A DNA stretch of 33,274 nt, from assembly GCA_003402285.1 (NCBI GenBank), contig QFXG01000003.1, positions 1 to 33,274 on the forward strand, given 5' to 3'. The DNA comes from Candidatus Nitrotoga sp. SPKER. GTDB taxonomy: Bacteria > Pseudomonadota > Gammaproteobacteria > Burkholderiales > Gallionellaceae. The notes under the pieces are model-generated. The model worked only from the letters and a program-made list of their open reading frames with translations. It ran no database searches and was not told the origin of the DNA. Positions 1 through 10,253 of this stretch are shown in pieces. Each line of letters begins with the position of its first letter. Positions within the stretch are counted from its first letter, which is position 1. The translations under genes were made by a program, and so were the position numbers.

Positions 1-165
1 AGCACCCATGTCCTCATCTGAACAAATGACGCTCAGCACGGAGCCAGCTGCGTGAACTTTGGCGGATGCGATCAAAGCCAAAAGTAGCAGGGAAATTAAG
101 TAAACGGATTTCCTGGTCACGACATAGGTGAATAACGCCGCGCCGAATATGACGTGCATATACAT
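1..165 (-). CDS. Exported protein of unknown function (N-terminal part, cut by window edge)
   Basis: The frame is open from an ATG at 165 to the window edge, giving 55 residues. A GGAG sequence lies seven bases before this ATG (171-176 region), which supports the start; a second ATG two codons in is possible. The visible part has a basic n-region (TRKS near residue 17-20), a hydrophobic stretch of about 13 residues (VYLISLLLLALIA) and an AxA-type site near SAKVHAA, so it reads as a Sec signal peptide. The mature part shows only SVLSVICSDED. It starts 51 bases after the stop of the neighbouring DUF2946-like gene on the same strand, so the two are probably one transcript. Too little is visible to assign a family. 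Confidence 0.55.
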   Translation of the reverse strand, partial: MYMHVIFGAALFTYVVTRKSVYLISLLLLALIASAKVHAAGSVLSVICSDEDMGA

Positions 166-216
166 AGTAATTCTCCAAAAATAAATGACACAGCCCCGCG
201 TTATAGCGAAGCAGTC

Positions 217-540
217 TTATGCAATTTCTTGGAGAAAATCAGGCGGGCCGCGCGCAACGGCGACAAGAGGTTGATTGGAACGGAATGTAGTGGTGCTAAA
301 CCGCACCGTTCCGCTCGGGATGGCGGTAACTGCAAAGGAAGGGGCAGAGCTGCCAAGCACGCCCCCCAGCTGTGTATAAGCCGCACAATACCCACACGCG
401 GATGAATGCGGTGTGTGCTTATCATGCTGCTGACCCTGCTCTGCAAGAGCATGCTGCAAAGCATGCATAGCTCCGCCTTGCTGAGCAAAAAACAACAGCA
501 AGATAAGGCATAGTGAAAAAAATACACGGGAAAATTGCAT
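217..540 (-). CDS. DUF2946-like small exported protein with His-rich region and CxxC
   Basis: 107 residues from an ATG at 540; the frame also extends upstream to an ATG at 624, but only the 540 start puts a hydrophobic signal peptide (FFSLCLILLLFFAQQG) at the N-terminus. After it come several histidines (HALQHAL, QQHDKHTPH), a CGYC pair, and near the end an ARGPP motif. A signal peptide, a CxxC-type motif and a terminal ARGPP/RAPP are typical of the DUF2946 family, whose members often sit beside TonB-dependent receptor genes; the broken receptor starts just across the divergent gap here. Metal binding by the His/Cys residues is inference. The 541-758 gap between this gene and the receptor remnant shows no convincing further gene. 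Confidence 0.6.
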   Translation of the reverse strand: MQFSRVFFSLCLILLLFFAQQGGAMHALQHALAEQGQQHDKHTPHSSACGYCAAYTQLGGVLGSSAPSFAVTAIPSGTVRFSTTTFRSNQPLVAVARGPPDFLQEIA

Positions 541-758
541 GATGAGTCCAACCTTAACAAAGATTGAAAGATGGTGCAAGACACGGATGATCTCAGTCGA
601 AGCTTGACCTACGAGTGCGAGCAACTATTCTATATAAGTAACCCAATTTGAGGATACGGTCGGTCAAGTACATAAGTTGCCCAGTAACGAGGTAGAAACC
701 CTCAAGGCTGAATTAAGCGCCGTGCCACTACACGTACCGCTCCCGTTGCAGCTCCTAA

Positions 759-1661
759 AACCACAGCCATCACCTACTCACACGGGACTTCCTCTGCTCC
801 GGCCTGCTGACCGGCAATCTCGGTAGCCAGGATACCATCCGCTACGACAACGTCGGCTCCTTCGACAACCTGGGCTTGTACCGCTTGACAAACATCACGC
901 AGAAGACCGTCTTCGCTAGCGACCGTATCGAGCTAACCGACCGCTGGTCGGTGCTCGCTGGCCTGCGCTTAAATAAGTTCGAAAAGATGGACTGGAATAG
1001 CGCCGGCGTTGCCAACGCCCCATACAAGAAAAACGGTACCGTGACGCCAACTGTGGTACTGATGTTCAAGATAGCGAACGACACCCTCGCCTACGCCAGC
1101 TATGTGGAATCACTGCAGCAAGGTGCCATTATCTCCAGTCTCCTAATCTATACCAACGTCCACGAGATGCTGAATCCGTTGAAAAGCAAGCAGTGGGAAC
1201 TGGGTATCAAAAAGGACGGCACCAGATGGTCCAGCACAGCCACCCTGTTCAGGATGGCGAAGACCACGGAATACGATCGCAGCTGCGGCGCGGACTGCCT
1301 GATCAAGGTACAGAACGGAGAGTCAGTTTTCCAAGATTTGGAACTTGGTGCCACTGCCCGTCTGACCAATTCGTGGAGCTTGGGCGGCAACCTGATGTTG
1401 CTCGATGCCGGGTATGCGTCGGGTGATACAGCAATCGTGAACAATCGGATAGAGGACAAGTACTGGGCCTACACCACGCACCGCGACCCGGTACTGACCA
1501 TGGGCGCAGCCTTTCGGGTGCCTTTGCCCAAGGATCCGTCTTTAAAGAATCATATCCACGACGATGTGACCATTAATCTACGCTCTGGTGCCTTGGTGCC
1601 TGACAACGCGCTAAAGATCGGCAGCCGCTGGTTTTACCCGATGCATTTCAGTCTAAACTGA
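759..1661 (+). pseudogene. TonB-dependent siderophore receptor, C-terminal remnant
   Basis: The frame is open from just after a stop at 756-758 and recognisable from about 780, then runs to a TGA at 1659-1661. It encodes beta-barrel strands of a TonB-dependent receptor: RYDNVGSFDNLGLY, then TNITQKTVFASDRIELTDRW, SVLAGLRLNKFEK, YASYVESLQQG, KSKQWELGIK, and GGNLMLLDAGY. These match the barrel of ferric-siderophore receptors. There is no plug domain, TonB box or signal peptide upstream, so roughly the first half or more of a normal 700-800 residue receptor is missing. The last strands with the usual aromatic C-terminus are also missing: the frame ends FYPMHFSLN and abuts the PepSY remnant with no spacer. 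It is a dead gene lacking both ends. Confidence 0.8.
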
Positions 1662-2859
1662 GTGTGGAAAGATGTCGGCTACTGGACCGTTGGCCTGGCT
1701 GGCTTCACCATGCTAGTGGCGCTAGTCACCAAGGTGATCATGCACCGCAAAAATTTCCGCGAGTTCTTTACTTTCCGGCCACGCAAGCACACCCTGCGTA
1801 GCATGCTGGATCTGCACAACCTCATCGGTGTGGTGGCTCTGCCCTTCCACTTCTTCTTCGCTTTCACCGGGCTGTTAATCTTCCTAGCAACTTTTACTTC
1901 CCTGTCAACCACACGCTGCTCAAGCCATTGCACCAGCAGCATGAGGTGATGGAAGCCAAGACCACCGGCCTGCCGCACGAATGCTCAGGCCGAGCCGCCC
2001 CGCTGGCTTTGGTGGACGTAACGAGGTCAAGCGCCGCTGGGCCGCACGCGACATGGCCGGCGAGGTGTGCTTCCTGACGGCGATGTATGTGGGCGACGCG
2101 AACAGCTACGTCAGTAGCTTCCGCGCTGGCAGCGACCGCGTAGCGCTAGTGGGTTAAGGCATCCATTTTAAGGCAGCACCGGCGAAGTGCTGCGCGAGGA
2201 TTCCCTGCGCAGCGTGATCTCCGACATCAACGAGTTCCTCAACGGTCTGCACTTGCAGCATTTCGAGCACTGGATGCTGCGCTGGCTACGTTCTGGGCAG
2301 GCTGCTAGGCTGCCTGTGCATTGTTGCCACTGGCTTCGTTTTGTTCGTGGAGAAGCGCAGACAGCAGCATGCCAAAGCGGGGGAGCAAGGCAGCCGGGTG
2401 GTAGATGCATTGACGGTGACCACGGTCACCGGCATGGTGATCGCGGCCATCGGCATGCTAGTAATCAATCGGATGTTGCCGACCGATCTAGCGGACAAAG
2501 AAGACTGGGAGCAATTAGGCTTCTGGGGCATCTGGGTGCTGGCAATGCTGCACGCCATCGTACGCAGCGCGCCGGTAGCTCAGGCTCGCATGAGTCCAGC
2601 CTGGTGCGAGCAGTGTTGGGTCATTGCCGCGCTGGCTATGACCGCGGTGGCGCTAAATATGCTGACCACTGGGGATCACTTGATCAAAACAGTATTCACC
2701 GACACCTACTGGCCCGTGGTCGGTGTGGATTTAAGCTTGCTGGTCAGCGCGGGCATTGCTATCTGGGCAGCGCGCAAATTGGCACTGAACGAGCGAGGCG
2801 GCACCAAGGTACCGATCGTGCGTCAAACAACCGATGCGACGGCGGTGGGGCATGTCTGA
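1662..2859 (+). pseudogene. PepSY-associated TM protein (iron-uptake locus), multiply broken
   Basis: Three frames must be joined to read one protein. Frame one (1662-1890) gives VGLAGFTMLVALVTKVIMHRK, REFFTFRPRKHTLRSMLDLHN and LPFHFFFAFTGLLIF, typical of the PepSY_TM family that accompanies TonB receptors. A one-base loss near 1889 shifts to NFYFPVNHTLLKPLHQQHE. Another shift before about 2011 leads to RNEVKRRWAARDMAGEV, ending at an in-frame TAA at 2155-2157. The reading resumes at GEVLREDSLRSVISDINEFLNGLHL (from about 2172), shifts again near 2289, and continues through four or five membrane spans to a stop at 2857-2859. The N-terminal first span and PepSY region are absent. Function in the family is thought to be reduction or handling of imported iron complexes; this copy cannot work. 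Confidence 0.8.
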
Positions 2860-3029
2860 GGCGCTGTGGCTGTGACGATGGCCTTAGCTCGCAAACCAAA
2901 TTTGCGGCAAATACTATGCCAGATATCGCAAATTAAAATACGATCCTAAGTTCAACAAATGCCTAATTTAAAATGAAACTATGATGGCTGAACGAATATC
3001 AACAATAAACCACATACTCTAAGAAAACA

Positions 3030-5372
3030 TTATTTATTGGCAACATTTTTCAGCGCTTCAGCCAAATCATTCAGGCGGAACGGCTTCGAAATGTAATTAT
3101 CCATTCCCGCAGCAAGACATTTTTCACGATCACCCACTAAAGCGTGAGCGGTCATCCCTATAATGGGAACTGGAGTTTTCCTTGCAGTAATTTCTTCTTG
3201 TCGAATTGTTTTAGTAGCTTCTAATCCATTAATACCAGGCATTTGAACATCCATAATAATAGCTAGATAACTGTTATCACGTGCCTTGATTATCGCCTCA
3301 TTACCATTAGAAGCTGTATCAATTTGATATCCCAATTCCTCAAGTAATGTTGAGGCCACCAGAACGTTCGGAGCGTGGTCTTCAACTAACAATAATTTGG
3401 GCTTATCTACATGCGGCATTAAAAGAGATGCTTCCTCTGAGTGAGATTCTTTCTGACCCAAATTTCCACTAACCGCCAACGGAAGAGATAAAGTAAAGGT
3501 TGAACCTTTATCTATCTCACTAAACACAGTAATTTGCCCGCCCATCGCTTCAGCAAGCGTTTTAGAAATTGCAAGACCTAACCCAGTTCCTCCAAATTTC
3601 CGATTGATACTTGCATCGGCTTGCATAAATTTTTGGAAAATAAAATCCTGTTTATCCGCTGGAATACCAATTCCTGTATCGCTTACGATAATGTCGATAT
3701 AATTTTTGCCAAACCGTTCTTGCTTTAGAGCTGAAATCTTAACATGACCCCGCTCCGTAAATTTTAGAGCATTACCACATAGATTAGTAACAATTTGACT
3801 AATCTTCGTAGAATCACCGATAAAATTTAACTCTTTAATTTCATCTAATTCTGTTAATAGAGATATGTTTTTCTCGTTTGCTTTTGCTTGCATAATTATT
3901 ACGACGTCAAGCAAAAGATTATAAAAACTGAAACTTATTTTTTCAGTATTCAGGTTACCAGATTCAATTTTTGAGATGTCGAGGAGATCGTTGATGAGCG
4001 ACATAAGAGAGTCTGCGCTCGTCTTCAGAGTATTGATAAATTCAATTTGCTTCGAGGTAAGATTATCTGATTTTGATAAAATATTCGTTAGGCCAATAAC
4101 AACATTCATGGGTGTACGAATTTCATGACTCATATTTGCCAGAAAATCTGATTTAGCATTATTAGCATTTTCAGCAATAATTTTAGCTGCCTCAGCTTCT
4201 TTGGCGGATTTTTCTAATTCGATCGCGGCGTTATGACGGAGAGTGATATCACGGGAAAGCACAAGAATTTGTACGGGAAAACCTTCAGCACCTTTAATCA
4301 GTGTAAGGGAGACTTCCCACCATTTGGGAATGCCTTTTATTGCTTCACCATATCCCTCAAAAGAAGAAGTTTCACCTCGTTTAATTTTGGCTAATGCATC
4401 AATCGCCTTTTGATGCTCTTCGCCTTTCCAGAAACTAGTCCACGGCTGTAATTCACACGCGGTAAAGTCTTCCATTCCCATGATTTCAAGACCCGCTCGA
4501 TTCATTGAAATCATTCGACCTTGCAAATCCAAAACTTTTATACAATCCGGACTACTATCCAAAACTGATTTTAGAAAAATTTCTCTTTCCCGTACTTGTG
4601 AAATGTCTGTTACCGTCCCGTACCATCGACGAAGTATTTTACTTTCATCAAATACTGGGACTACACGACTAAGCATCCAATTGTAACTTCCATCCGGTTG
4701 CTTCAGTCGATATTCAATTTCAAAAGGATTTTCGCTTTGAAATCCTTCTGCCCGAGCTTTAGTAACATGTTGTGCATCTTCTGGATGAACTAGTATCTGC
4801 CATCTTTCCGTCATCAATTTGTAATCATTTCCTATGAGATCCCGAACCCGATGATTATAAAAATCAGGTTGGCCATTAGGTGGGGCACTCCAAACCATTT
4901 GAGGCATGGAATTCGCCAATTCAAGCAATCTTTCTTCATTATCTTTAGTTAATTTATGAACCTTCTCTTCTGCCTCTCGCATACGTAACATGGCATTAAT
5001 TGTCGCCAGTAATTCTGCACTTTCCAGCGGTTGCGTCAAATAAGCATCTGCACCTTTTTCAAGACCAAAAATCTTATCTTTTGCGGCAATATAATTGGCA
5101 GAAAACTGCACAATAATTACCGATGAGAGCTCAGGCATTTGCCTTAATTTTTGACAAACTTCAAAACCATTTATGTCGGGAAGATTAATATCCAGCACAA
5201 TAAGTGCTGGTTTATGGTTTTTTGCAAGATCAAGAGCTTCTTGTCCCGTAGTTGCCTCAATAACGTTATGGCCGCCACGTTTTAAAATATGGGTAATCGT
5301 ATATCTCTTGGCGTCTTCATCATCAACTACCAGAATTAATTGTGATGAAGAAACCGCGTTCTTGGAAATCAT
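3030..5372 (-). CDS. Hybrid histidine kinase REC-PAS-PAS-HisKA-HATPase-REC
   Basis: 780 residues. In order: receiver domain (about 11-128, phospho-acceptor Asp61 in VLDINLPD), PAS/PAC (about 145-260), second PAS (about 265-378), short helical linker, HisKA with MSHEIRTP (His416), HATPase_c (N box near NLCGNALKF, G boxes DTGIGI and GGTGLGLAIS), and C-terminal receiver (about 657-778, Asp708 in IIMDVQMPG). No membrane span, so cytoplasmic. In the first receiver the usual lysine of the KP pair is Gln114 (YLTQPLES), while the second has KPF. The start ATG overlaps the stop of the upstream kinase by four bases (ATGA), so translation is coupled. As last gene of the stressosome operon it is a likely output or phosphorelay partner; neither DNA-binding domain nor HPt is present, so the final target lies elsewhere. 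Confidence 0.88.
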   Translation of the reverse strand: MISKNAVSSSQLILVVDDEDAKRYTITHILKRGGHNVIEATTGQEALDLAKNHKPALIVLDINLPDINGFEVCQKLRQMPELSSVIIVQFSANYIAAKDKIFGLEKGADAYLTQPLESAELLATINAMLRMREAEEKVHKLTKDNEERLLELANSMPQMVWSAPPNGQPDFYNHRVRDLIGNDYKLMTERWQILVHPEDAQHVTKARAEGFQSENPFEIEYRLKQPDGSYNWMLSRVVPVFDESKILRRWYGTVTDISQVREREIFLKSVLDSSPDCIKVLDLQGRMISMNRAGLEIMGMEDFTACELQPWTSFWKGEEHQKAIDALAKIKRGETSSFEGYGEAIKGIPKWWEVSLTLIKGAEGFPVQILVLSRDITLRHNAAIELEKSAKEAEAAKIIAENANNAKSDFLANMSHEIRTPMNVVIGLTNILSKSDNLTSKQIEFINTLKTSADSLMSLINDLLDISKIESGNLNTEKISFSFYNLLLDVVIIMQAKANEKNISLLTELDEIKELNFIGDSTKISQIVTNLCGNALKFTERGHVKISALKQERFGKNYIDIIVSDTGIGIPADKQDFIFQKFMQADASINRKFGGTGLGLAISKTLAEAMGGQITVFSEIDKGSTFTLSLPLAVSGNLGQKESHSEEASLLMPHVDKPKLLLVEDHAPNVLVASTLLEELGYQIDTASNGNEAIIKARDNSYLAIIMDVQMPGINGLEATKTIRQEEITARKTPVPIIGMTAHALVGDREKCLAAGMDNYISKPFRLNDLAEALKNVANK

Positions 5373-7153
5373 GCCATAGCCTTTGCTTTTAAAATTCGCG
5401 TTGGAAGACTAGCAATATAGATTTTCAAGTTAGCGGCAGATATATTTTTAGGTAGTATGTCAGTACAACTCTTCAAAAGGGCTAACTTCTCAGCACCACT
5501 TAAAACTTTGGAGGTATGGATAATTACCGGAATACTTTGAGTATCTGCATCATTACGGAGAGCCTTCAATACAGTTTCGCCGTCAGCTTCAGGCATTTGA
5601 AGATCCAGAAAAACCAAATCTGGCCGTTCATTCTTTACAAAATCAACCGCGACATCGCTATCAGCTGTTTCTACAATTTCATGACCAGCTTCAATCATTT
5701 GACGCTTCAAGGCATAGTATGAAGTTTCTTCATCATCAACGATCACGACGCGCAAACTTCGTTGAATAATTTTATCCTGAGAAGCTTTCTGCTTTTTCGC
5801 TGGCACAGCTCCAGGTAAATTAACGGGGACGATAAGTGTAAAGGTCGAACCTTTGTCTTGCTCACTTTCTAATGTAATATAGCCGCCAAGCAACGCAGCC
5901 AATTTTTTCGATAGTGGTAAACCGAGACCAGTACCTTTGTATTTCTTTTGTAATGTATGCGTAATTTGGCTAAATTCCTCAAATATTTTTTCATGATTTT
6001 CTTCAGCAATACCGATCCCATTATCCGAAACCTTAAAAATTACATTTTCAGATTTATTATCAAAAGATGAAGAAACTGTGACTTCACCTTGCTCCGTAAA
6101 TTTGAGTGCGTTGGATATTAAGTTTCGCAAAATTTGCGATACCTTCCCTTCGTCTGTGTAAAGCTCCGGAATATCACTTGTAGATGTAAAATTCAAAACT
6201 ACATTAGGGTTAATAACAAGCGGCCTGAACATACCTCTCAAACCTACGATAATTTCTTCTACAGTAAAACTTTCAGGTTCAACTGTAATTTTCCCAGCTT
6301 GTATTTTTGATAAATCCAGAAGGTCATTAGTCAGCTGAGACAACGTGTCCATAGATTTTCTAATAAGTGAAACCTGCTTTTCTTGCTCAGACGTTAAATC
6401 CCCATCCGTGCGATCCAGTAAAAACTGTGAAATATTTATGACAGAGTTTACTGGTGTTCTAAATTCATGAGACATGTAAGATAGAAAACGCGTCTTGATT
6501 TCGTCAGCTAGCTTAAGCTGTTCAGCCCGCTCGTCTAATTCAGCGTAGAGTGCAACAACACCTTTATTAGTTTCCTCAAGCTCTATGTTTAATTCGTTAA
6601 GTCTTTCTTGTTTTTTTTCTAATTCTTGAAGCGCAAGCAAAAGTTCGCGATTTTGATGCTGGACTTCAGACACAGAGGCATCTGGCATTTCTTGAAAAAT
6701 AGAACTGGTAATCTTCTTTATATCATCCGGCGTAAGAGATTTGTTTCTCGGAATGAATTTCTCGATTGTTATTGTTGTTCCATCTGATGAAGTTTGGATG
6801 TCAAACCGATCCATTAAACGTTTAGTACCAATCAAACCCAGACCCATACCAGTTTTAGACTGATAACGTCCATCCATAATCTCGCCAAGATTTTCAATTC
6901 CATTCCCTTTATCAGAAATTCGTACAATTAGGTTTTGGGAAGGCTTTTCTCTTTTGTGAAACAAAAATTCTACTTTGCCCTCGCGCGCATAACGTAAGGC
7001 GTTTCTGGCAATTTCGGATACAGCCGTAGCGATACGCGTTTGCTCAACGCCTTCAAAGCCTAAAAGTCCGGTGATTTGTCTAGTACGCTGACGAACAAAC
7101 ACAATATCTTGTTCTTGACAAATAGGAGTAGAAAAGATTGGAAGTTCACTCAT
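5369..7153 (-). CDS. RsbT-like ATPase fused to hybrid histidine kinase (HATPase-HisKA-HATPase-REC)
   Basis: 594 residues. The N-terminus (about 1-135) is an RsbT/RsbW-type ATPase domain: SEIARNALRY (N box, Glu47/Asn51), DKGNGI, and GMGLGLIGTKRLMDRFDI, closely resembling the RsbT encoded upstream. A coiled-coil-like Glu/Leu-rich linker follows (about 165-215), then HisKA with MSHEFRTP (His229), a second, kinase-type HATPase_c (NLISNALKF, DNGIGI, GTGLGLPLS), and a C-terminal receiver (about 467-585, Asp517 in VFLDLQMPE; Lys569 in the PK position). It is soluble. Its start overlaps the phosphatase fusion gene by eight bases and its end overlaps the next kinase by four. The layout suggests that the stressosome controls the kinase directly through the N-terminal domain; this is inference. 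Confidence 0.85.
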   Translation of the reverse strand: MSELPIFSTPICQEQDIVFVRQRTRQITGLLGFEGVEQTRIATAVSEIARNALRYAREGKVEFLFHKREKPSQNLIVRISDKGNGIENLGEIMDGRYQSKTGMGLGLIGTKRLMDRFDIQTSSDGTTITIEKFIPRNKSLTPDDIKKITSSIFQEMPDASVSEVQHQNRELLLALQELEKKQERLNELNIELEETNKGVVALYAELDERAEQLKLADEIKTRFLSYMSHEFRTPVNSVINISQFLLDRTDGDLTSEQEKQVSLIRKSMDTLSQLTNDLLDLSKIQAGKITVEPESFTVEEIIVGLRGMFRPLVINPNVVLNFTSTSDIPELYTDEGKVSQILRNLISNALKFTEQGEVTVSSSFDNKSENVIFKVSDNGIGIAEENHEKIFEEFSQITHTLQKKYKGTGLGLPLSKKLAALLGGYITLESEQDKGSTFTLIVPVNLPGAVPAKKQKASQDKIIQRSLRVVIVDDEETSYYALKRQMIEAGHEIVETADSDVAVDFVKNERPDLVFLDLQMPEADGETVLKALRNDADTQSIPVIIHTSKVLSGAEKLALLKSCTDILPKNISAANLKIYIASLPTRILKAKAMA

Positions 7154-8153
7154 TTCCCCCCCGCTTAACGACCATTATAGTTGTGTCATCACGCCCTCGT
7201 GAGAAGTCTCTATATAAAATACTTGCGATCATGATAGGCCGTCTCCGTCTTAAACCCGGATAATCATTTAAGCTCCATCGAGTCTGCAAGCCATCACTAC
7301 TCATAATTAGAATTGAATCCTCATGTGCGGCATAGTTCATATTTTGAAACTTATTTGCACTATGACCTAACGTGCCGTTAAAGGAAATCAGCTGCTTATC
7401 TTGCACGCCAATCAGAACACCCGCTATATTTCCTACGCCTAAAAAGGACAGATTATTTTGTTCGAAATCTAAAATTGCAATTGCACCGGCCGCTCCTCGA
7501 GTACTTTTTAAGCCACGATGTATATTCTGCATAATAATTACAGGGTTAGTGTCTTGACGCTCTTGAAATATGCGTGCCGCATTTAAAGAAGCGTCATGCG
7601 CTAATTGCCCATGACCCAAACCATCAGTAACCAAAGCATATAAAACACCGTTTTCAATAAAATATGACCAAATGTCTCCACAAACAGATTCTTTCGTCAT
7701 TTTAATCGATAAGCCACCCACATCAAATTTGGATGGCTTAAACGTTTTTTCTTTAAAAACACGTCCCCAAATAACTGTGCCTTTATCGACCATGCTGTAA
7801 ATATCAAAAAAATCTGATTGTCTTTGCATAGCGCCAAGGCCGGTGCCTGCGCTGCCATAAGTTGAAAAACCATCTTGTAAACATTCTTGAATATTTTCCA
7901 TGCCTTTCCCTTTATCCAGGGAAATAACATCGATAAAATTATTCTCGTTATTGTTACAAGCTTGAATGATTATCTCGCCGTTACCGGCGTGCTTTATGAG
8001 ATTGGTTGCTGCTTCGGAAGCGATGATTGCCAGTTTTTCTGTTCGGACTTCATCAAAACCAGCTTCTTCAGCCATCATTTGAGCTTTTCTTCTCACGGGC
8101 GCAACTTCTGAAATTTCGCCAACGTGCATAATGGCTGTTTGTGCTATGTCCAT
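7146..8153 (-). CDS. RsbT-like ATPase fused to SpoIIE/RsbX-type PP2C phosphatase
   Basis: 335 residues in two domains. Residues 1-135 form an RsbT/RsbW-type ATPase with IIASEAATNLIKHA (Glu47/Asn51) and GSAGTGLGAMQRQSDFFDIYS. Residues about 145-335 form a SpoIIE-like PP2C phosphatase with the metal-binding motifs in order: CGD (158-160), DGLGHG (177-182), SSDGLQ (Asp287) and RDDTTIMV (322-329). In Bacillus, RsbX removes the phosphates that RsbT places on RsbR and RsbS and so resets the stressosome; here the phosphatase is physically tied to an RsbT-like domain. The gene overlaps rsbT by ten bases and the following kinase by eight. Whether the ATPase half is an active kinase or only a docking domain cannot be decided by reading. 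Confidence 0.87.
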   Translation of the reverse strand: MDIAQTAIMHVGEISEVAPVRRKAQMMAEEAGFDEVRTEKLAIIASEAATNLIKHAGNGEIIIQACNNNENNFIDVISLDKGKGMENIQECLQDGFSTYGSAGTGLGAMQRQSDFFDIYSMVDKGTVIWGRVFKEKTFKPSKFDVGGLSIKMTKESVCGDIWSYFIENGVLYALVTDGLGHGQLAHDASLNAARIFQERQDTNPVIIMQNIHRGLKSTRGAAGAIAILDFEQNNLSFLGVGNIAGVLIGVQDKQLISFNGTLGHSANKFQNMNYAAHEDSILIMSSDGLQTRWSLNDYPGLRRRRPIMIASILYRDFSRGRDDTTIMVVKRGGNE

Positions 8154-8554
8154 TGAATTATACTTATCCGGGTTCCCTTACCTACTTCAGTCCATAAATC
8201 GAATTCATTTACAAGGCGTTTGGCACCTGTAAGACCCAGCCCCAGGCCCTTGCCTGTGGTATATCCGTCTGTCATTGCAAGCTGAATATTGTCTATTCCC
8301 GGCCCTTGATCTTCGAAAACGAGTTTAAGGCCCTTTTTATTCCCATTAATAAGTTCTTCAAATGTTAGATAACCACCGCCGCCATAATCTAAAGTATTAC
8401 GGGCCAGTTCAGATGCGGCAGTAATAAATTTAGTTTGATTAACCACGTTGAAACCAGCCTTAATGGCTAGTTCTCGCACTTTTTGTCGCGCTATAACGAT
8501 ATCTTCTGATGATTGGATGGGGAGAACCAGTGCCACATTTGTCATGCTGCTCAC
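8144..8554 (-). CDS. rsbT: RsbT-type serine/threonine kinase of the stressosome
   Basis: 136 residues, the usual length of RsbT, made of a single GHKL ATPase domain: TAASELARNTLDYGG (Glu49/Asn53), EDQGPGI, and GLGLGLTGAKRLVNEFDL. In the known system RsbT is held on the RsbR:RsbS complex, phosphorylates conserved Ser/Thr of the STAS domains upon stress, and is released to act on an output protein. The start shown is a GTG overlapping the rsbS stop by four bases (GTGA); an ATG three codons further in (8545) is the alternative. It lies immediately after rsbS, as expected for the rsbR-S-T core. Confidence 0.9.
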   Translation of the reverse strand: MSSMTNVALVLPIQSSEDIVIARQKVRELAIKAGFNVVNQTKFITAASELARNTLDYGGGGYLTFEELINGNKKGLKLVFEDQGPGIDNIQLAMTDGYTTGKGLGLGLTGAKRLVNEFDLWTEVGKGTRISIIQWT

Positions 8555-8910
8555 CGCTTTAATGCAGTGCGGAGAATATCAAGGCCTTTTTCAACATTGA
8601 GAGCAGTACGTACGCCATCAAGCGTCAATCCCAGTTCAACAAGGGTGATCGCCACAGCGGGGCGCATACCAACAACGACTGTCTGTGCATCTAAAATGCG
8701 CGATAAGCCAGCAATATTACTTATCATACGACCAATAAAAGAATCAACAATTTCTAAAGCTGAGATGTCAATCAGTACGGCCTTTGCTTTATATTTGGCA
8801 ATTTGATTAGTAAGGTCGTCTTGTAAATTTAAAGCAATCTGGTCATGCATATCCACTTGGATCGTCACCAGCAGATGCTCGCCCATTTTTAAAATTGGTA
8901 TTCTATCCAT
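8551..8910 (-). CDS. rsbS: RsbS, STAS-domain stressosome scaffold protein
   Basis: 119 residues, a single STAS domain with no other region, as in Bacillus RsbS. It opens IPILKMGEHLLVTIQVDMHDQ and contains LIDISALEIVDSFIGRMI and VVVGMRPAVAITLVELG. The phosphorylatable serine corresponding to Bacillus Ser59 is Ser57 in VDSF. RsbS forms the stressosome core with RsbR and holds RsbT until phosphorylated. The gene starts 18 bases after the rsbR stop, with an AGAGAG-like ribosome site, and its stop overlaps rsbT. Confidence 0.92.
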   Translation of the reverse strand: MDRIPILKMGEHLLVTIQVDMHDQIALNLQDDLTNQIAKYKAKAVLIDISALEIVDSFIGRMISNIAGLSRILDAQTVVVGMRPAVAITLVELGLTLDGVRTALNVEKGLDILRTALKR

Positions 8911-8928
8911 GCGAAAACTCTCTATAAA

Positions 8929-9789
8929 CTAGACTGCCACTTTGACAATTTTTTGCTTTGTGCGCTCCAGTGCGACAAGGAATGCATCGGCCAAAGTTGC
9001 TTTAGTAATGACGCTAGTTAGATCAACACCAAGATGCACAATCGTTTGGGCAATTTGTGGGCGGATACCGCTGATAATGCAATCTGCACCCATTAATCTC
9101 GCTGCAGCCACAGTTTTAAGCAAATGTTGTGCTACCAACGTATCGACCGTAGGCACGCCAGTGATATCAAGAATGGCAATCGTAGCGCCTGTATCCACAA
9201 TCTCTTGCAGGAGGCTTTCCATTACAACTTGTGTGCGTGATGAATCCAATGTGCCTATCATTGGCAATGCCAGTATACCTTCCCAAAGTTGAACAACAGG
9301 TGTTGAAAGTTCCAACATCTCCTGTTGCTGACGGGAAATAATTTCTTCACGGCCTTTTTGATAAACCTCTGTGGTGTACAGGCCCAATTTATCAAGAATA
9401 ACTGTGATGTTCCACAATACTTCCGCAAGAATTGCTATATCTTTAAAATTCTCACGAGCAATATTAAATAATGGTTGCTTAAGAGAGAAAATAAAAGTTG
9501 CAGTATCAGAAGGTGAAAAACCTTTTTTAGCACGGCTCAGAGAAACATCAGCCAGTAAGACGCGTACATCGTCCCACTCATTTCCCGTAAGTTTATCGTT
9601 TTTATTATTTTGTAGGGCGCCAGAAAAAAGTTGTAAAAACTTTCTGGATTCTTGTTTAACCTCATTTTCTGAGATTAAATCACGACGCATGGTGAAGCTA
9701 GAAAGCTGATAACTACCCCATTGTTCAAGAATAATTTTCTCGTCTTTTTGGATTACTTGTGCAATTTGATCGCAGCCGACATTGGTCAT
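8929..9789 (-). CDS. rsbR: RsbR-type stressosome sensor (RsbRD-like N domain + STAS)
   Basis: 286 residues. The N-terminal half (about 1-150) resembles the RsbRD-type N domain: helical, with LEQWGSYQLSSF, LADVSLSRAKKGFSPSD and a long helix leading into QQQEMLELSTPVVQLWEGI. The C-terminal STAS domain (about 160-280) carries GTLDSSR, LDITGVPTVDTLVAQHLL and GIRPQIAQTIVHLG. Thr217 (VDT) corresponds to Bacillus RsbRA Thr205; the Thr171 position is Ser183. No histidine occurs before residue 222, so the sensor domain cannot supply a haem ligand of the kind described for Vibrio RsbR. It is the first gene of the six-gene operon; AAGGCG five bases before the ATG serves as ribosome site. Confidence 0.9.
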   Translation of the reverse strand: MTNVGCDQIAQVIQKDEKIILEQWGSYQLSSFTMRRDLISENEVKQESRKFLQLFSGALQNNKNDKLTGNEWDDVRVLLADVSLSRAKKGFSPSDTATFIFSLKQPLFNIARENFKDIAILAEVLWNITVILDKLGLYTTEVYQKGREEIISRQQQEMLELSTPVVQLWEGILALPMIGTLDSSRTQVVMESLLQEIVDTGATIAILDITGVPTVDTLVAQHLLKTVAAARLMGADCIISGIRPQIAQTIVHLGVDLTSVITKATLADAFLVALERTKQKIVKVAV

Positions 9790-10253
9790 AACTTCGCCTT
9801 TATTTTTGAGGAATAGTATTAATAAGTTATTGATATATTATTTACAATATAATTGTATATGCATAGTTAAACGGCTTAAAAGATTTTCAGCATCACAAGT
9901 TGTATTATGAAAGCATGGACAAGGTTACCACCCTGTTGTTCTCGCTGTTCGGTTTGGCTACAACCCACACACGGTTCGTTCTGAAAATAGAATTAAAGAA
10001 AATGAGTCGACGATCACTGCGGCACATATCAAAAGCAACCCTCTCCCACCAAAACTTCAAATTCACTCAAACATCTTTGGTAAGGTGTGTTATTCAACAT
10101 TTCCCTAGCATCTGCGAAGTAAAACGCAGTATGAGTGTATAATAGTTACTTAGTGTAGCCTGAATTGAGTCATGCAAACAGCCACGGCTCTACGCAGATG
10201 GCGAAAATGACAAATCCATTTTAGATAATACGATCTGAGCAATATCTAGGTAC
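9790..10253. other. Intergenic region between divergent rsbR and mlaA
   Basis: About 460 bases between divergent genes with no convincing gene. The part next to rsbR (9790-9870) is very AT-rich and must hold the stressosome promoter; TTGTAA and TATTAA boxes spaced 17 bases apart can be found on the minus strand, but in such AT-rich sequence this is weak. It includes a dyad, TACAAT-ATA-ATTGTA at 9843-9857. The central part (about 9910-10080) has normal base composition and an open frame of 80 codons (TTG start at 9900) that resembles no family I know and lacks a ribosome site; it may be a gene relic. Confidence 0.4.

Follow-up and report, generated by a model that had tools for sequence, protein, structure and literature searches.

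RsbRST(X) modules with two-component outputs have been reported previously (PMC9237108; PMC10014275; PMC3360785). The route from a Gram-negative stressosome to its kinases has been described as open, with most such kinases lacking an RsbU_N domain and no RsbT binding found in Vibrio (PMC9237108). Here, we analyze a six-gene operon of Candidatus Nitrotoga sp. SPKER, located on a stretch of 33,274 nucleotides (contig QFXG01000003.1; hereafter the window) that constitutes an entire contig of a 2.98 Mb genome in 32 contigs, listed as 100% complete. Its genes encode, in order, RsbR, RsbS, RsbT, a phosphatase fusion (TX), a hybrid histidine kinase with an N-terminal RsbT-like domain (T-HK; gene 5) and a second hybrid kinase (HK2; gene 6).

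With the sigB stressosome of Bacillus subtilis and Listeria, the operon shares homologues of RsbR, RsbS, RsbT and RsbX, the phosphosites of which align. It differs in carrying an RsbRD_N sensor and a serine at the first RsbR site, and in having no RsbU, RsbV, RsbW or SigB within the operon, to which the search for a sigma-B gene was confined. The RSTX module of Vibrio vulnificus likewise consists of RsbR-S-T-X followed by two-component genes, without SigB or RsbU (PMC9237108; PMC10014275). However, its RsbR is globin-coupled, whereas the Nitrotoga RsbR has RsbRD_N, and its single-domain RsbX directly follows RsbT, whereas the X moiety of the window is fused to an RsbW-like domain; for D1 of V. 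vulnificus no RsbT domain is described, and cyclic-di-GMP is the presumed output of D1/D2. Stressosome operons can also include histidine kinases with RsbU_N, in which an N-terminal domain and a helical linker place the kinase under the control of the stressosome (PMC9237108; PMC12143880), an arrangement similar to the one proposed below for T-HK. In those kinases, RsbT binds RsbU_N in trans, whereas in T-HK the RsbT-like partner is itself fused, and RsbU_N is absent from the Pfam matches of T-HK, of HK2 and of four gene-5 kinases devoid of the RsbT-like domain. The literature searched gave no example of RsbT fused to a histidine kinase; Pane-Farre 2005 and 2017, outside that coverage, may mention one. 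Plasmid MP1 of Deinococcus radiodurans R1 carries all six genes in identical order (DR_RS15570-15595, L136), among them a kinase composed of RsbT-like, HisKA, HATPase and REC domains; there, the gene-6 kinase is shorter (REC-HK) and lacks both the PAS domains and the C-terminal REC.

We propose that the six genes specify a stressosome with an output kinase, T-HK, that brings its own docking domain and would be under direct RsbR:RsbS control, a reading to which we assign a probability of about 0.6. It builds on gene order, domain types, conserved phosphosites, the RsbT-type domain and ATP pockets that were lost selectively among relatives, all of which can be seen in the sequences.

Pfam recognizes HATPase_c_2, HisKA, HATPase_c and Response_reg in T-HK. 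The N-terminal domain is classified as RsbT-type, as the initial annotation had anticipated for a kinase of this operon: the SExxRN motif occurs in 13/13 T-HK domains and in all 80 RsbT rows, and an RsbT profile outscores the profile of the TX domain (that of the RsbX fusion) for each of the 13. Mean identity of the T-HK domains amounts to 32.9% with RsbT rows versus 23.7% with TX rows, and for the window copy identity is 41.8% with Listeria RsbT, on a par with the window's own RsbT (41.0%), and 20.6% with Listeria RsbW. The best PDB matches of an AlphaFold2 model of the domain (pLDDT 91) are SpoIIAB from its complex with SpoIIAA, and RsbW from that with RsbV. In a first tree of RsbT, TX and T-HK domains (61 of 179 domain rows, rooted on a single long RsbW branch), the 14 T-HK rows form one clade (100/99) within a set that comprises RsbT and Listeria RsbT (100/98), with TX outside. 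As proof of a sister relationship between T-HK and RsbT, this tree is weakened by a second one, in which RsbT groups with TX, and profile scores were used instead. By sequence, the RsbT, TX and T-HK domains are distinct types, on whose branching order and depth the trees disagree.

The domain is joined to the kinase by a helical linker bearing an ETNxGVVALYAEL motif. In the AlphaFold2 model of full-length T-HK (mean pLDDT 81.8, pTM 0.44), a continuous helix (160-247) runs from the linker into the HisKA helix that bears His229, a residue kept in 83/83 gene-5 rows.

ATP-site residues were scored in 67 T-HK domains (53 operon and 14 orphan copies); ten loci are outside this tally, eight being second copies (L187-L192, L150, L210) and two non-duplicates (L152, L199). 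The ATP pocket was considered lost if at least two of five residues (Asn51, Asp81, Gly83, Gly104, Gly106) were changed. By this measure, 37 of the 67 domains, namely 35 of the 53 operon copies and two orphans, have lost it; RsbT genes from this set retain these residues in 120-121 of 121 rows. Arg21, Ser46, Glu47 and Arg50, on the other hand, are invariant in all 67 T-HK domains, and Thr43 and Arg112 are found in 65 and 66 of them, respectively. Positions fixed among the 35 pocket-less operon copies lie mostly in the first two helices (16-52), together with Arg112 to Asp115. In SpoIIAB, Arg20, Ser45 and Thr49 are located near the antagonist site, Glu46 is the catalytic base and Asn50 a magnesium ligand (PMC10345196); these align to Arg21, Ser46, Arg50, Glu47 and Asn51 of T-HK, respectively. 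A lost pocket combined with a retained face of the antagonist type would fit retention of the domain for binding rather than catalysis. The pocket-less copies represent putative natural separation-of-function variants, in which the contact face is present and the ATP site is gone.

The operon as a whole is organized as summarized below. As initially annotated, six genes run in one direction, from 9789 down to 3030, with an 18-base gap between rsbR and rsbS and overlaps of 4 (rsbS-rsbT), 10 (rsbT-TX), 8 (TX-T-HK) and 4 (T-HK-HK2) bases. Adjacent genes for RsbR (sensor plus STAS), RsbS (STAS) and RsbT (GHKL kinase), the arrangement by which an RsbRST stressosome module is recognized, support the assignment of the operon as a putative RsbRST stress module with kinase outputs.

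Features of the operon and of the insertion that contains it (window positions)
Feature	Position	Strand	Length (amino acids)	Description
rsbR	8929..9789	-	286	RsbRD_N (PF14361, 5.6e-25) sensor + STAS; predicted phosphosites Ser183, Thr217
rsbS	8551..8910	-	119	single STAS domain; predicted phosphosite Ser57
rsbT	8144..8554	-	136	GTG start; GHKL-type switch kinase; HATPase_c 1.1e-9
TX	7146..8153	-	335	RsbW/SpoIIAB-like ATPase domain + RsbX-like phosphatase; HATPase_c_2 1.1e-9, SpoIIE 6.7e-6
T-HK	5369..7153	-	594	RsbT-like domain ~1-135, helical linker, HisKA (His229), HATPase, REC (Asp517)
HK2	3030..5372	-	780	REC-PAS-PAS-HisKA-HATPase-REC hybrid kinase; Pfam: two Response_reg, PAS folds
Insertion	583..10105			compared with the two closest genomes of the genus; operon + TonB-dependent receptor and PepSY-TM fragments

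The identities given to RsbR, RsbS and RsbT agree with both Pfam domains and PDB sequence matches: RsbR is closest to Vibrio RsbR (7o0i, 1.4e-32), RsbS is closest to Listeria RsbS (6qcm, 8e-29), and RsbT shares 41.0% identity with Listeria RsbT. In alignments of 101 rows each, which include the window and Listeria and contain a few regions twice, Ser183 of RsbR is conserved in 100 rows, Listeria having threonine there, and Thr217 in all 101, while the position of Ser57 of RsbS holds serine in 100. We take Thr175 and Thr209 of Listeria RsbR and Ser59 of Listeria RsbS to be the equivalents of these sites. TX matches RsbX in the PDB (3w40, 4e-11) and, with its first domain, SpoIIAB (1l0o, 8.8e-4), and this domain mostly displays SExxTN, as in RsbW. 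TX is a phosphatase fusion, as initially annotated, and its N-terminal domain is assigned nearer to RsbW/SpoIIAB than to RsbT. For the six operon proteins no NCBIfam model scored above cut-off (among the best 25 matches for the two kinases). A role as a defence system was considered and set aside: a PADLOC scan of T-HK and four further proteins (all but HK2) gave weak kinase and REC matches, all of them for T-HK. Promoter and terminator prediction was uninformative (20 and 5, versus 20.1 and 6.1 in shuffles).

Pfam reports a DNA-binding domain on neither T-HK nor HK2, in keeping with their previous description as hybrid kinases without one. The first receiver (REC1) of gene 6 retains its aspartate in 82/82 rows and lacks the usual lysine in all 82, the lysine position being occupied by His (72), Gln (3, the window included), Glu (3), Arg (2), Ser (1) or Ala (1). 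Because this lysine is consistently missing, REC1 may be an unusual receiver or a pseudo-receiver.

A final regulator and the classical sigB partners were also sought. No conserved response regulator follows the operon: among 76 loci with space after gene 6, the largest group of similar neighbours has 6 proteins. The check for orphan HPt genes put forward in the initial annotation turned out negative, as the nine matches of Pfam Hpt over the own genome all lie in frames of 581-1376 amino acids and none in a small frame. Its statement that RsbU, RsbV, RsbW and sigma-B are not present holds for the operon and was extended, for RsbU, RsbV and RsbW, by genome-wide searches. The only match of the SpoIIE family in the genome is TX, so that no RsbU was seen. 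The six STAS matches are RsbR, RsbS, two domains in frames of 555-563 amino acids, and two small proteins, which are MlaB and a chemotaxis STAS encoded beside CheA, not RsbV. No stand-alone RsbW was seen, the nine other HATPase_c_2 matches lying in frames of 372-929 amino acids; this model missed RsbT, so a divergent RsbW could escape it. A separate histidine kinase of the same genome with a weak RsbRD_N-like N-terminal domain (L090, G000:C16, 1495-2619; 7.5e-4) was set aside.

A search of 84,980 species genomes with T-HK as the query yielded 455 relatives, from which 80 loci were retained. The full order R-S-T-TX-gene 5-gene 6 is present in 73 of these, so the conservation of synteny expected in relatives is borne out, as it is on D. 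radiodurans MP1. Among the seven incomplete loci, five are at a contig end (L012, L014, L033, L036, L041); in L008 (Hydrococcus), RST and the remaining genes are divergently arranged, and in L073 T was not recognized. Since the six-gene order recurs in 73 of 80 relatives, it is not due to chance. Operon loci were found in Pseudomonadota, Acidobacteriota, Gemmatimonadota, Planctomycetota and Cyanobacteriota and, judged by these loci, the operon type is widespread and not special to the window genome.

The RsbT-like domain of gene 5 is present in eight of the 80 loci; in the other 72 the kinase starts at the coiled linker. Further domain-bearing copies occur in plasmid records of Deinococcus, Sphingomonas and Paraburkholderia. 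In the window's own taxonomic order, a match spanning domain and linker was obtained in 11 of 399 genomes drawn, and in one genus of that order in 56 of 62. In a tree of kinase cores, which includes 31 of the 72 kinases without the domain and gave long-branch warnings, the latter form one group (100/100), which would fit a single loss of the RsbT-like domain. Conversely, the domain is carried by kinase cores very unlike the usual one in L138 (6001-7872), L139 (5989-7659), L143 (5989-7005) and L181, suggesting that it moved between kinases or that the core was replaced.

In 14 regions, T-HK is an orphan located far from S, T and TX. In four of them (L175, L176, L228, L231), the orphan adjoins a divergent lone RsbR gene, with no RsbS, RsbT or RsbX nearby, which may represent a two-gene, reduced stressosome-kinase pair and speaks for the docking reading. 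Two plasmid records deserve separate mention. In a haloarchaeal plasmid (Halanaeroarchaeum; L142, 4833-10561), genes for a PAS-STAS protein, RsbS, RsbT, an RsbX-like protein and a large PAS protein are consecutive, forming an archaeal RSTX-like module. A record filed as a plasmid (L137, NZ_CP030101.1) measures 2.9 Mb, contains a sigB operon and looks like a Listeria chromosome.

In the window genome, the operon lies on an insertion. Window positions 2-582(593) and 10106 onward are separated by 159 and 258 bases in the two nearest genomes (G006 and G007, respectively), and the window genome therefore carries about 9.5 kb extra. A search for RsbRD_N in 100 genomes was positive in three, namely the own genome and two of 40 other-family genomes of the order, and negative in all 59 related genomes (18 same-genus, 41 same-family). 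The G+C content is 39.7% for the operon, 45.8% for the backbone and 55.4% for the left part of the insertion (583-3029), in which truncated TonB-dependent receptor and PepSY-TM genes are found. Comparison of the DNA of 583-3000 with plasmids recovered PepSY and TonB genes and no mobile element. The operon was probably gained here, loss from all kin being the less simple explanation.

The following scheme, in which binding, the direction of control and phosphotransfer are what we infer, is consistent with these data. RsbR, with its RsbRD_N sensor, and RsbS would form the STAS core. Upon stress, RsbT would phosphorylate RsbR at Ser183 and Thr217 and RsbS at Ser57, and TX, recruited via its RsbW-like domain, would remove the phosphates from both. 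The RsbT-like domain of T-HK would dock on the same STAS surface, where the unstressed core holds the kinase, and STAS phosphorylation would release or re-orient it. The change could then run via the continuous helix into HisKA, leading to phosphorylation of His229, from which the phosphate would pass to Asp517 of the T-HK REC domain, to HK2, or to both. Activation of RsbU by RsbT involves the conversion of linkers to a coiled coil, and histidine kinases have been proposed to be among the modules that can be exchanged (PMC12143880); a linker mechanism is therefore plausible for T-HK as well. More tentatively, T-HK could be a subunit of the stressosome shell, held by a dedicated docking domain (a pseudokinase in several lineages), with RsbR/RsbS phosphorylation switching the kinase through direct contact and no need for RsbU, free RsbT or a sigma factor; we consider this specific form possible rather than probable.

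Several observations weigh against direct control of T-HK through a docking domain. The domain of the window itself retains Asn51, Asp81, Gly83, Gly85, Gly104 and Gly106 and, with its ATP site intact, may also be a kinase. Among the 35 pocket-less operon copies, 32 come from one genus and one more is its sister row in the kinase tree; with L011 and L014 counted separately, pocket losses would number about three independent events. The residue mapping from SpoIIAB to T-HK is by alignment only. The second domain tree, to which orphan T-HKs were added, places RsbT and TX in the starred set with the T-HKs outside and does not recover a single T-HK clade, although such a clade is not rejected (p-AU 0.43). 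The four T-HK:RsbR neighbours form one clade (100/97) and hence count as one event, and 10 of the 14 orphans have no adjacent RsbR. Finally, the 72 gene-5 kinases without the domain presumably work, so it is not needed everywhere. These points partly favor other explanations. The intact ATP site of the window copy would suit an active serine/threonine kinase acting on STAS proteins, the histidine kinase part being only co-located or reporting, as would the orphans, which mostly keep the site, and the invariance of Glu47, the equivalent of the SpoIIAB catalytic base (PMC10345196). We regard this as unlikely in view of the 35 of 53 operon copies in which the contact face outlived the pocket, and of the RsbT that every operon already has.

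The frequency of gene-5 kinases without the domain is in turn what would be expected if, as proposed for Vibrio, the downstream kinases were targets in trans of free RsbT, which would bind or transiently phosphorylate them, the fused domain serving mainly to form dimers or to pair with RsbT or TX. The dimeric state of SpoIIAB and RsbW speaks for such a role. Action in trans has been proposed for kinases without RsbU_N (PMC9237108). It leaves unexplained, however, why a face of the antagonist-site type is kept after loss of the ATP site, and we likewise give it a low probability. That the kinases are independent sensors sharing only a transcript with the stressosome is in line with the two PAS domains of HK2 and the lack of a conserved downstream regulator at the 76 loci, yet appears improbable given a gene order conserved across phyla, a T-HK located beside RsbR alone in one clade, and the similar phenotypes of upstream- and downstream-module deletions in Vibrio (PMC10014275). 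Least credible is a recently acquired, non-functional passenger in the window genome: absence of the insertion from the 59 related genomes (by RsbRD_N search) and the two nearest ones and the truncated TonB and PepSY genes adjoining the operon point that way, but the six reading frames are uninterrupted, and no defect was seen in those catalytic and phosphosite residues that were inspected.

The six-gene operon is widely conserved and poorly studied. In D. radiodurans, where the operon had been noted by 2001, the two kinases DR_B0028 and DR_B0029, which we equated with the DR_RS tags by gene order and not by record, have been suggested, with reference to Makarova 2001, to share their regulation with an antisigma-factor operon (PMC6501615); DR_B0028 increased after vacuum exposure (PMC6501615) and DR_B0029 after exposure in low Earth orbit (PMC7597052). 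A kinase with a fused RsbT-like domain offers a direct answer to the question of how Gram-negative stressosomes reach downstream kinases, and the presence of this operon type in D. radiodurans R1 makes the answer testable in a laboratory organism. The T-HK fusion suggests how stress-sensing complexes could pass a signal directly to a phosphorylation pathway.

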